A stretch of 64,000 bases of DNA from Candidatus Poribacteria bacterium. GTDB taxonomy: Bacteria; Poribacteria; WGA-4E; WGA-3G. The position numbers and the translations under genes are program-made. Below, piece after piece: positions 2 through 31,102 of this stretch. Location of the stretch: contig JAJEGI010000064.1 in NCBI GenBank assembly GCA_022819945.1, positions 1 through 64,000 on the forward strand, in the 5' to 3' direction. Under the pieces are notes generated by a model that did no database searches, was not told the origin of the DNA, and saw nothing but the letters and a program-made list of their open reading frames with translations. How positions within the stretch are numbered: position 1 is the first letter of the stretch; the number at the start of each line of letters is the position of its first letter.

Positions 2-3000
2 CGGAGCGTAATCGTTGTTGGACCCGAATTAGGGCTACACCAATGTGGTATACCCAAACGGATGGCGGTTGAATTGTTCAAACCGTTTATCATTGAGCGA
101 CTTCAAGCGTACGGTTTTACACAGACAATTAAACGGGCGAAGCATATCGCTGAACACGTTGACTCCGATTCGCCTGTATGGGAAGTCGTAGAGGAAGTCA
201 TCGCAGATCATCCAGTCCTACTCAACCGACCGCCAACGCTGCACCGGCTCGGTATTCAGGCGTTTTTGCCTGTTTTGGTGGAAGGGAAATCTATCAGAAT
301 CCCGCCCCTCGTCTGTAAAGCGTTCAATGCCGATTTTGACGGCGACCAGATGGCAGTTCATGTACCCCTGACAGTGGAAGCGCAGGCTGAGGCAAAACTC
401 CTAATGCTCAGCAGTCATAACATTTTGAAACCTTCTCACGGTCGTCCTATCGCTGTTCCTGAACTCGATATGGTACTTGGACCCAGCTTTCTCACAAAGA
501 CGCTACCAGGACACGCTGAAGATGCAGCGCTTTTGCACGAAGCCTACACGACAGGCGATGCCGATGCTTTTGAGGCTTTCCAAGACAAACCTTGGTACCA
601 TCGACGCTTCGCGCATCCTGAAGAGGTTATCACCGCACATGCCGCCGGGCAACTTAAACTCCACGACAGTATCCAACTTTTCTGTGCATCCAACGGACAT
701 GATGGAACTGATGCAGGAGCCGAGCCAATTCTCACAACAGTCGGTAGGGTGATCTTTAACGAAGTACTACCGTCTGAATTAATATGGGAAGATGAACATT
801 CACAGCAGCGTATCCCGTTTTTCAACGCGGAAGCCGGTGGAAGCGAACTGTCTACAATCATTGAGGATTGCTTCCGAGAGTTAGGAACCCGAGTTACAAC
901 CGAAGTGCTTGAAAAAGTCCAAAAACTCGCCTTTGAATACGCAACGCTGAGCGGCATCTCACCCTGCATCACAGATTATATCACACCTGATAACAGGGAT
1001 ACGTTGGTGACAGAAGCGCGGAAAGAAATTGACGAACTCCTCGAAGGCGTGGAGGCAACCGATCGCGAAGAACATGAAAATGAGCAGATCCGTATTTGGT
1101 TGAACGCAATTTCAGCCGTAGAAGATACTATGTTTGCTACCTTGCCTGAACTCGAAACACCTCTTGTTGAGCGTGGGGACCCGCGTAGGGTACATCCCTA
1201 TGTTGATCCTGATGGCGCAGAGATTAACGATAAGACAGTCGAAGGGTTCAGCCCTGTTCATATTATGGCAGATAGCGGCGCACGAGCACGGAAAAATCCG
1301 TTTATGCAAATCAGTGCTGTTATCGGTTTGAAGGCAAAGCAGACCGGCGAAATCCTCATTCCGCCTATTACCTCCTCTTATCGTGAGGGCTTGGATGTAC
1401 TCGACTATTTCAACTCCACTTACGGTTCACGGAAAGGACTGGTGGACACGGCACTGAAGACTGCTCATTCGGGTTACCTTACTCGGAGACTTGTAGATGT
1501 CGCACAGGATGTCCGCGTTACTGCTGAAGATTGTGGGACCTTGAACAGCATCCAGAAGTTCGCAACAGAAGGCGGTGATCTCGCCTTTAAGATCAGTGGG
1601 CGAACCGCTGCCGAAGATATCATCCATCCACAGAGCGGCGATGTACTCGTTCCCGCTAACACTATCATCTCCACGCAGATGGCGAACCAGATTGATGACC
1701 TTGACATAAAGGTGGTAAAGGTCCGCTCTGTGCTTACATGCCAGACTGACGAAGGCATTTGTGCCAAATGCTACGGTAACGATCTTACAACGAACAGTCT
1801 TGTGAATGTTGGCGAAGCCGTCGGGATCATCGCTGCCCAATCTATTGGTGAACCCGGAACGCAGTTAACTATGCGTACATTCCATACAGGTGGTGCTGTT
1901 GAAGATGTTTCGGAAGCGCGTCAGCACAGGATCCTATCCAAAGTGAGTGGCACCGTGCATTTTCGAGATTTCCAACCTGGACGAACGGTTAAACAGGAAC
2001 GCGAACTCTGGATCGCTACTGAAAACCGCGCAAACCTTGATGGACCCGCCTACAAGGTTCAACAGGTCAACCACCCCGATTGTCAACTCCGTAAAGGCGA
2101 GCTACTGAGTGAGAAACAGTATGGCGAAAACGCAGAGCGTTATAAAGGCTTTGATACTAAGACATGGCAGTACGAAGTCACCGCTGTTTTGGATAGCGAC
2201 TGTGCCTTGAACGCAGGCAACCGACTGTCACAGAATGAATACGACAGGGCACTCGAAAGATACGGCTTCAAGCGTTTTGTGGAGGAAAAGTTTCCTGTAG
2301 TTGAGGTAAAACATCCTGACATCTCAGTAACTGCTGGCGATCTGCTCACTGAAGAAGAAGAGGAACAGTTAAAAGCAAGTGTCCGGCAAGGATTTGATGT
2401 CGATTTGTATTACTTAGATCCAGACACTGGTGAACTCGTCAAGGAAGAGGAGCTTAAGGAAACAAGTAATGCTTCTCTCGGACAGGCTGGAGAACGGGAT
2501 ACGGGTTTCGAGCGGTTTTACCGCATCACTGATATAGGGGAAACCGTAAGCAAAGCCTTCCCATTTAAACTCGGAGAGGATGTAGCAGCGGAAAAGATCA
2601 CTCCGTGGCTGAACCCGTTTGAAGTAGATAAGAAAAAGCCTGTTTATGTTATGCGTACAGAGGTTACCGACGCGCCTTCTCTTCTCAAACAAGGCGCAGC
2701 TTTGAGTGATAGCCAAGCGCAAGACATTCCGGCACTTGGAGTCGGACGAGAGCTGACAAAGAATGAATACGATAATGCCTGCGCTCAGTACAAAGCACTT
2801 GGACGCGCATTTAAAGTCGAAAAACAGGAAGTTGAACGGCACTATGTGACTGCTGTCTATCATCCAGAATGCCCCCTTAAGGTTGACGAAGAATTAACGG
2901 AAGAAGCATTAACCCGGGCACATAGACGATTTACCGGTTTCGATGTCCAAAAACTACGACACCGCGTAACACAAGTTCATCACCCTGACTGCACGCTTAA

Positions 3001-4798
3001 GCCCGGAGATTTACTCGGTGAGAGTGAGGAAAAACAGGATAACGAACGCTATCCAGGGTTCACGACTTCTACAAGCGAGATTGATACGGGTGGTTTTGAG
3101 ACTGAACGCTTATATCGTATAACCGCTGTCAATCATCCAGATGCTGTCAATGACAATGATCCCGATTGCCCATTGGCGGTAGACGAGCTTCTCACCCAAC
3201 AACAGGCGACCGCAAAGCGGCGACAATACAAGGGGTTGGAAGTCACCCGGTATTATAAAGTGACGAACGTTGAAGACGGAACGACAACGGTGAATGTTGG
3301 TGACCGTCTCACGGAGATTGAATATAAGGCACTCCGTAAAGATGATCCTGAACTTTCAGGAAAGGTCACGAGTGTCTATGAGGTAATCAGCGTACATCAT
3401 CCTGAACTTGAACTTGAGGCTGGTACCGAGCTCGCTGATGCAAATTACAAGGCTTACAATCGAAAGTTCAAAGGATTTGATACTGAACTCGTCTACGAGA
3501 TTGTTGAGGACAATCGCGACACAGAGACACCGCTTGAACCGGGCACAATTCTTCCCTCGAAGGAATACCGCGCTTTGGAGAAAGCGAACAAGAAAGTCCT
3601 CCATACCGTAACAGCTGTCTATCATCCGAATTGCAAGTATGCCGTTGACGATGAATTGTCAGCGGAACAGTACGCAGACGCTAAGATGAGATACCCCGGA
3701 TTTGAAGTAGATGAATTATCTCTTCAGATGCGCATTGAAGTGGAAACATCTGATGGAACCCGAGTACCGCATGTCATTCCCGCAGATTATTCCTTCTCTT
3801 TGGCTGAAGGTGATACCATACGTAAAGGAGAAACGCTCGCCGAACTCCATGAGAGAACGGCGAACCTTGACATCGTTGCAGGAATTCCGCGCGTTACTGA
3901 CTTGTTTGAAGCACGCCGTCTAAAACGCGGTGATGCCGCACAAATCGCCGAAATTGAGGGATTCATCCGATCCGCAGGCACAAAGGCAGGTGTTCCGACA
4001 TATCGCATTGAGCACGAGGGATATGTCAGTCGAATCTATCAGATTCCTGATGAGAATCGACGGGTCGCTGAAGGCGATTGGGTGAATGCCGGCGAACCCC
4101 TCACCAGCGGTTTCCTTAATCCGCACGATATTTTGAGTATCGGGCGCACCACCATTGAGGGCGTACCTGTTGAAGGTGAAGAGGCTGTTTGGGCGTATCT
4201 CGTTGATGAAGTACAGAAAGTTTATGGCAAGGGCACTATCAACGATAAACACGTTGAGATCATCGTACGGCAGATGCTGACCAAAATTCGCATCACCGAG
4301 CCTGGCGACACAGACTTTTATCCGAATGATGAAGTGCATCGCAGACGCTTTGAGCACGTCAACAGCGAAATTGTGGAACAGGGCGGCACCCCTGCTACAG
4401 GTGAACCGATTCTCCAGAGCATCAGCAAAGCCTCTTTGAGCACGGATAGCTTCATCTCTGCTGCTTCCTTCCAGCAGACAACCAAGGTACTCACCGATGC
4501 CGCTGTCAGTGGACAAACCGATAAGCTCTTCGGGCTCAAAGAAAATGTCATTCTCGGCCGCCTCATCCCCGCCGGTAGTGGATTCTCCAGCTTCCAAAAC
4601 CTGGAAGTGACCCAACAGGACCCGCAGGAAGAGGTGTCTAACGGCGAGGAACAGATTGAATCTGATGGGAATTCAAAGAAGGGAAATGCAAAAACCTCTG
4701 AGTCATCTGAGGATCAAGGGGTTTATCTTTCGGATGGATCTTCCGTAATCTCGCCCACAGATGTTGGAGATACTGTTGTTGTTTTGGATGATGAATAA
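2..4798 (+). CDS. rpoC: DNA-directed RNA polymerase subunit beta' (5'-truncated by window edge)
   Basis: Catalytic subunit of RNA polymerase. The reading frame is open from base 2, and the residues before the first ATG (base 62) already match the family ([16 protein letters not shown]), so the gene starts outside the window. The Mg-binding motif NADFDGD lies at 326-346. The four-cysteine zinc site is present: Cys at 1532, then C-x6-C-x2-C at 1739, 1760 and 1769. The trigger-loop segment [16 protein letters not shown] is at 1846-1893. About 1.67 kb of tandem ~40-residue repeats follows (2051-3719), after which the conserved C-terminal part resumes ([19 protein letters not shown]-like, [24 protein letters not shown]). 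The C-terminal tail (from about 4615) is acidic and serine-rich. The N-terminal zinc finger is not in view. Identity is certain; the repeat insert is unusual. Confidence 0.97.
2051..3719 (+). repeat. Tandem ~40-residue protein repeats inside RpoC
   Basis: About eleven copies, several degenerate, of a module that reads V-T-x-V-x-H-P-[DEN]-C-x-L-x-x-G-[DE]-x-L-[ST], then a short helix-like stretch with a Y or E, and ends R-[YF]-x-G-F-[DE]-V. Clear copies begin near 2051, 2168, 2285, 2840, 2957, 3112, 3373 and 3604. The array occupies the place after the trigger loop where E. coli carries its SI3 insertion. The copies are diverged at DNA level, so the expansion is not recent. Confidence 0.85.
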
Positions 4799-30173: not shown

Positions 30174-30710
30174 TTATTCACCGTTTCTTGTCAATCGCGC
30201 AACGATTTCTTCAACCGCGCCCTCCGCACGTTCACGAATCTGATCCGGGGTCAAACTCTGAATCGGGTGCGCAACAGTAAGCGGTTCTAAATCGCTATGA
30301 CCTAATACACGCGCCTGGACTTTGCCTGCAGCGAAGAAAACTTCCGTACAGACCGACACACTTGGCACCCCACGCTCTTCTAAAACACTTCCATCGTGCA
30401 TACTGCACGATATACAAGACCCTCAGTCAGCAAGTCCTTCAATAACAAAATCAGTCTGTTCCGCCAATTCAACGAGCAATTCTTCTGGTGCCGGACGCGA
30501 GAAGGTCGGTTTCTTGACATGAATCACTTCGGCAATATCGAACCGTTCCTGCATTAATTCAGCAATGCGATCAAGAAAAATATCGCTACCATTTTTCGTG
30601 ATGTTCAGCAAGCCCATCACTTTGCCATCAAGGCTATCGAGCCGCGGCGCAAGAAATTTCGCAGATACATCGCCTTGAGAGGTCGGATCAAGTAGGGTGG
30701 TGTTTGGCAT
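30174..30710 (-). CDS. UGSC family selenoprotein with in-frame UGA (Sec)
   Basis: A 178-residue protein if the TGA at 30423-30425 is read as selenocysteine. Translation runs DFVIEGLAD-U-GSCISCSMHDGSVLEE without another stop; U-G-S-C is the motif that names the UGSC family of (seleno)proteins. Ordinary gene calling would split it into two short frames, 30423-30710 and 30174-30401. Eleven bases after the UGA lies a perfect 8-bp hairpin with loop G-T-A, in the position of a bacterial SECIS. GAGG precedes the ATG at 30710. The N-terminal part contains LDGKVMGLLNITKNGSDIFL. The function of the family is not established; a redox role is likely from the U/C residues. Selenocysteine machinery is not visible in this window. 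Confidence 0.85.
30393..30411 (-). promoter_or_regulatory. SECIS-like stem-loop downstream of the UGA codon
   Basis: On the coding strand the arms ATCGTGCA and TGCACGAT pair perfectly around the loop GTA. The stem begins 11 bases after the UGA, and a G opens the loop. Both features fit bacterial SECIS elements recognised by SelB. The same bases code for the residues just after the U-G-S-C motif. Confidence 0.7.
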
Positions 30711-30734: not shown

Positions 30735-30755
30735 GGCGAGGTTTATAACCTCGCC
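30735..30755. repeat. Dispersed hairpin (9-bp arms, loop TAT)
   Basis: Arms GGCGAGGTT and AACCTCGCC pair perfectly around TAT, in the gap between the TPR and selenoprotein genes. Same architecture as the hairpins at 6576 and 36281, with different outer bases. Confidence 0.65.
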
Positions 30756-30769
30756 CACGCTTTAAAAGA

Positions 30770-31102
30770 TCACGTAGATGAACCGGATGCTTCCATCTGC
30801 AGCTGCTGCGACTTTGCCATCGCGTCCTCTGCTTCTTGGATCATTCCTTTTCTTTGATAACACACAGATAAACTGGTATATACAAGCGGATCCTTCGGGT
30901 TAATATCAATCGCTTTTTGAATCGCTTCAATGGCTTCATCATAACGGCTGAGCCGTTCATAAGCGTGCCCTAACCCAAGGAATCCTTCTATATAATCTGG
31001 ATAGGTGTCAACTAATTCTTTGAAAGCATTGACAGCCGCCTCAAGGTCGTTTTCGGCAAAATGAGTGAGCGCAGCATCGTAAAGTTCTGCTTCGGTCGGC
31101 AT
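30770..31102 (-). CDS. Small TPR protein
   Basis: A 110-residue protein made of about three tetratricopeptide repeats (ALTHFAENDLEAAVNAFKEL, EGFLGLGHAYERLSRYDEAI, VYTSLSVCYQRKGMIQEAED) with a short polar tail. No signal peptide. It lies 59 bases upstream of the selenoprotein gene on the same strand, so the two may be cotranscribed. TPRs act as protein-binding scaffolds; the partner is unknown. Confidence 0.75.
   Translation of the reverse strand: MPTEAELYDAALTHFAENDLEAAVNAFKELVDTYPDYIEGFLGLGHAYERLSRYDEAIEAIQKAIDINPKDPLVYTSLSVCYQRKGMIQEAEDAMAKSQQLQMEASGSST

Follow-up and report, generated by a model that had tools for sequence, protein, structure and literature searches.

A UGSC-family selenoprotein gene from a sponge-associated poribacterium and its putative partner protein

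The UGSC family was named in 2008 among the major selenoproteins of ocean metagenomes, in a survey (GOS) that counts 255 UGSC sequences and places them among the most abundant selenoproteins of aquatic metagenomes (PMC2398784). The same survey reports a UGSC/Unknown_1 fusion, in which UGSC carries an extra conserved domain (PMC2398784), and a 2026 review still lists UGSC among the families whose functions are largely uncharacterised (PMC13188914). The other systems with which we compare it are selenoprotein B of the glycine, sarcosine and betaine reductases and PrdB of D-proline reductase; GrdB-like proteins have been implicated in fluoroacetate breakdown (PMC10838667). Our literature search brought up no publication that mentions Poribacteria together with selenoproteins.

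A UGSC gene split by ordinary gene calling

The gene described here lies in a 64-kb window, the whole stretch of DNA that was analysed, which is a contig of a Candidatus Poribacteria MAG from a sponge-associated source (genome of 5.8 Mb in 182 contigs, ~93% complete). Ordinary gene calling reports two ORFs, which share one frame on the minus strand (Table 1), and reading the TGA at 30423-30425 as Sec yields a single product, MPNTTLLDP...EGLADUGSCISCSMHDG..., with the motif U96-G-S-C99. The pattern TGA-GGN-TCN-TGY occurs once on both strands of the window. The initial annotation had proposed a gene split by ordinary calling, in which an in-frame UGA gives exactly U-G-S-C and the frame stays open on both sides, and all of this was borne out, the open frame by the full-length reading and by conservation past the UGA in the 47 genes compared below. 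Its coordinates hold as well; the strand, which it had left out, is minus, the gene running from 30710 to 30174.

Table 1. Features of the UGSC locus, in window coordinates
Feature	Position	Strand	Remarks
UGSC family selenoprotein gene	30174..30710	minus	178 aa with U96, TGA read through
Sec codon TGA, U96 of the UGSC motif	30423..30425	minus	TGA in 46/46 poribacterial homologues
N-terminal fragment, 95 aa	30423..30710	minus	as ordinary gene calling reports
C-terminal fragment, 75 aa	30174..30401	minus	as ordinary gene calling reports
Bacterial SECIS-type hairpin	30393..30411	minus	stem 30404-30411 / 30393-30400, loop GTA 30401-30403
Small TPR protein gene, 110 aa, directly upstream of UGSC	30770..31102	minus	kept in 43/46 poribacterial loci

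Judged by its sequence, the protein is a full-length member of the UGSC family, with matches to NF041046 (156.9 bits, cut-off 125) and PF24696 (1.5e-50; 172.1 bits against a cut-off of 25, residues 6-174). The gene very probably specifies a real selenoprotein; as its family dates from 2008, it is a fresh member and not a fresh kind. Elsewhere in the window (62-4798), an RNA polymerase beta'-like ORF carries an unusually repetitive insert with many degenerate copies of a 'V.HP.C.L..GD.L...Y..A..RY.GF'-like motif.

Hairpin, constraint and Sec machinery

A stem-loop lies directly downstream of the UGA. Its perfect 8-bp stem (ATCGTGCA-GTA-TGCACGAT) starts 11 nt after the TGA, and its loop is of the kind described for bacterial SECIS elements, i.e. 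a small apical loop containing a G (PMC1088965). When the 17 codons concerned were recoded synonymously 200,000 times, a perfect stem of at least 8 bp arose there in 289 cases (p ~0.0014), and RNA folding gave z = -2.96. The overall folding energy is not unusual, with 15% of synonymous recodings folding equally well, since the residues S-C-S-M-H-D by their own codons partly favour pairing. A search of the window against Rfam gave no match at gathering thresholds.

The decisive evidence that the hairpin exceeds chance is evolutionary constraint. We compared the window gene with 46 related loci, all from Candidatus Poribacteria and 65-97% identical, complete chromosomes among them. The Sec codon is TGA in all 47 genes and the inner 7 bp of the stem are invariant, synonymous positions included, with the eighth, closing pair broken in several of the homologues. 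Furthermore, of 96 conserved degenerate codons five never change in the 47 genes, and four of these five make up the full set of degenerate hairpin codons (TCG, TGC, AGT and CAC; P = 1.5e-6, kinship among the genes being ignored). With these codons fixed even at synonymous sites, the constraint on the DNA goes further than the encoded protein requires.

Exchange of Sec and Cys in one alignment column is the classical test of a selenoprotein. Among more distant relatives, which were taken from plasmid records and are all below 40% identity to the poribacterial protein, we observed Sec forms (TGA) in Acidovorax and Paracoccus, and Cys at the Sec column in Natrinema, Embleya, Arthrobacter, Halorientalis, Haloterrigena, Roseovarius, Halalkalicoccus and Variovorax; GSC is invariant in the alignment with the Cys forms. 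The hairpin of the Acidovorax and Paracoccus genes (GTCGTGGA-GTG-TCCA(C/T)GAC) has the same spacing of 11 nt and the same loop length as in Poribacteria, and two pairs of its stem have both bases changed relative to Poribacteria, i.e. the changes are compensated. On the practical side, standard annotation truncates UGSC genes, as in the Acidovorax and Paracoccus plasmid records, where the selenoproteins are broken at the TGA and entered as short 'hypothetical proteins' (L069:3983-4273; L074:3977-4264 and 4304-4546).

The same genome contains the Sec machinery: a tRNA-Sec (76.3 bits, anticodon TCA) adjoining SelB (342 bits) on contig C113, SelA (610 bits) on contig C76 and SelD (362 bits) on contig C4. 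SelD carries an in-frame TGA of its own, giving CAGUASK, the U of which is in the place of the catalytic Sec/Cys of SelD, and this TGA is followed by a short GC-rich hairpin (L020). A further probable split selenoprotein, PrdB-like, was seen on contig C114 (L075:1453-2217), where an in-frame TGA gives U-P-M-C; a PF07355 match is present in 49 of 59 genomes of the phylum.

From the machinery and the constraint we infer that SelB and tRNA-Sec very likely decode the UGA at codon 96 as Sec, with the hairpin that follows after 11 nt as the signal. If the UGA were instead a real stop, leaving a pseudogene or a functional truncated protein of 95 aa next to an accidental hairpin, it would be expected that standard gene callers split the gene, which is all that speaks for it; the conservation of the protein past the UGA, the frozen hairpin codons, the Cys homologues that run through the site and the presence of the machinery make such a stop extremely improbable. 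A sequencing or assembly error, with TGC or TGT misread as TGA, would be conceivable for a MAG contig, but the identical TGA in 46 other loci, complete chromosomes included, renders it close to negligible. The idea of a coherent bacterial Sec insertion site, put forward in the initial annotation, is upheld by the UGA with its hairpin, the family match, the Cys homologues, which have CGSC in the column of UGSC, and the TGA of the 46 homologues from other assemblies, which also settles the concern that the codon might be a misread Cys codon; the SelA/B/C/D machinery that it implied was recovered by genome search. Of the perfect 8-bp hairpin with loop GTA eleven bases on, which is present here, the inner 7 bp are conserved across homologues and the outermost pair is not.

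A candidate partner protein and the gene neighbourhood

A 'hypothetical protein' of ~350 aa adjoins UGSC in Natrinema, Arthrobacter and Paracoccus. Homologues of this partner adjoin UGSC in 11 of 12 plasmid loci, and in the twelfth (Variovorax) the two are fused into one protein of ~545 aa. The partners form an uncharacterised family of 310-360 residues with an invariant Cys, which mostly lies in a NAVMAGC motif. No convincing match to 14 members was found in Pfam and NCBIfam, neither UGSC nor the partner had a convincing sequence match in the PDB, and a search of viral contigs for the partner found none. A BURRH match to the partner, which covered 35 residues only and had no stretch passing alone, was not taken as homology. 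In two haloarchaeal plasmids (L130 and L134), a Cys-form UGSC gene lies between two paralogous partner copies, an arrangement that may indicate a hetero-oligomer.

In Poribacteria the partner gene is not linked to UGSC. The window genome has one copy, on another contig (C9, L076:1474-2415), and its product shares 45% identity with the Natrinema protein across 338 alignment columns. Throughout the 59 genomes of the phylum, UGSC and partner are both present in 42 and both absent from 15, with UGSC alone in one and the partner alone in one (Fisher 6e-12, phylogeny ignored); the joint absences fall in several families, also inside genera that otherwise have both. SelB is above cut-off in 57 of the 59 genomes, so the Sec machinery alone does not explain the pattern. 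Adjacency, fusion and co-occurrence suggest that UGSC and the partner are likely to be two subunits of one enzyme. The UGSC gene itself belongs to an already named family and the partner may be new; with a constant partner named, the question of UGSC function becomes testable.

The gene for the small TPR protein is the only neighbour kept beside UGSC in Poribacteria, the others changing from locus to locus, and one of the three loci without it is on a contig that ends too close to show it. The TPR protein is a probable operon partner of UGSC. Between the two genes lies a perfect inverted repeat (ggcgaggtt-tat-aacctcgcc, window 30735-30755). Outside Poribacteria, the neighbours of UGSC are often genes of organic-acid catabolism or transport, such as CoA transferases, isocitrate-lyase/PEP-mutase-like lyases, and TRAP and tricarboxylate transporters. 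Thioredoxin-system genes adjoin the UGSC-partner pair in 2 of the 12 plasmid loci (trxA and trxB in Arthrobacter, trxB in Roseovarius), and no thioredoxin gene was seen beside UGSC in Poribacteria.

In the window, iron-sulfur genes (IscU/IscA-like) lie near UGSC, and in certain other families of selenoproteins Sec may coordinate a metal (PMC13188914). Both observations would fit a reading in which UGSC is a real selenoprotein but handles something else, binding a metal, sulfur or selenium or passing it on to the partner. We regard this as quite unlikely: Isc-like genes turned up at just 4 of the 46 loci, all of them from close relatives, so they are not conserved neighbours, and the catabolic genes around UGSC elsewhere give no hint of metals. 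Iron-sulfur and menaquinone genes were both considered as functional neighbours and rejected, being absent beside UGSC in more distant Poribacteria.

Fold, proposed mechanism and comparison with known systems

In the AF2 model of UGSC (pLDDT 80), strands alternate with helices and U96 follows directly on strand 3. As modelled, the order of strands and helices in the domain would be doubly wound, as in Rossmann or flavodoxin-type folds, and not that of a thioredoxin fold. Foldseek against the PDB gave generic alpha/beta folds only (TM <0.6), with no thioredoxin fold among the 50 best matches, and neither Pfam nor NCBIfam gave a thioredoxin-family match. These results weigh against the suggestion, made in 2008, that UGSC is a thiol oxidoreductase of general function with UxxC as redox pair in a thioredoxin-like fold, and the constant partner and the organic-acid neighbourhoods rather suggest a specific substrate; the UxxC motif and the thioredoxin-system genes at two loci are in its favour, and overall we think it unlikely.

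Weak matches to glycine reductase selenoprotein B (TIGR01917) were observed in 8 of 10 UGSC members (best 0.0056), and to PrdB in 2 of the 10 (best 0.0078). The window protein reached 13 bits against TIGR01917, for a cut-off of 602, and no significant match to TIGR01917, TIGR04483 or PF07355, the models for selenoprotein B (GrdB/PrdB), was found. When UGSC was set against the PrdB-like protein of the same genome, profile comparison gave no match and a Sec-anchored ungapped comparison gave z = 1.0, which is not significant. The link of UGSC to selenoprotein B is a weak one.

Our best guess is a reductase of two subunits, linked to thioredoxin, that acts on a small organic acid in the manner of selenoprotein B. 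Its UGSC domain, doubly wound alpha/beta, would resemble that half of selenoprotein B (GrdB/PrdB) which bears the Sec; U96, where strand 3 ends, would attack a small organic-acid substrate and form a selenoether or selenenyl intermediate; the partner would help to bind or activate the substrate; and Cys99, together with the thioredoxin system, would return the enzyme to the reduced state. We offer this mechanism, as a whole, tentatively and at somewhat less than even chances. It is likewise possible, and held with similar reserve, that UGSC and its partner form an undescribed two-subunit Sec- or Cys-dependent reductase of a small organic acid in bacteria and haloarchaea, related distantly to, or convergent with, glycine/proline reductase, with the two genes unlinked in Poribacteria. 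The explanation taken in its entirety, i.e. a UGSC selenoprotein with a partner and an inferred mechanism of this kind, is the best that we have and a likely one.

In comparison with selenoprotein B and PrdB, UGSC likewise has a UxxC Sec site, and genomics points to a separate, putative partner subunit, with thioredoxin-system genes nearby in some genomes, but it is a protein of 178 aa whereas those have ~430, and no significant homology was found. Its partner gives no match to the models for GrdE and PrdA. The poribacterial gene does not differ in kind from the UGSC family (NF041046 / PF24696, the 'UGSC-containing protein' of the GOS survey), with which it shares the full-length match, the U-G-S-C motif and Cys homologues with CGSC. 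Finally, in the UGSC/Unknown_1 fusion of the survey (PMC2398784), UGSC is joined to an extra conserved domain, and Unknown_1 may be identical with the partner found here.
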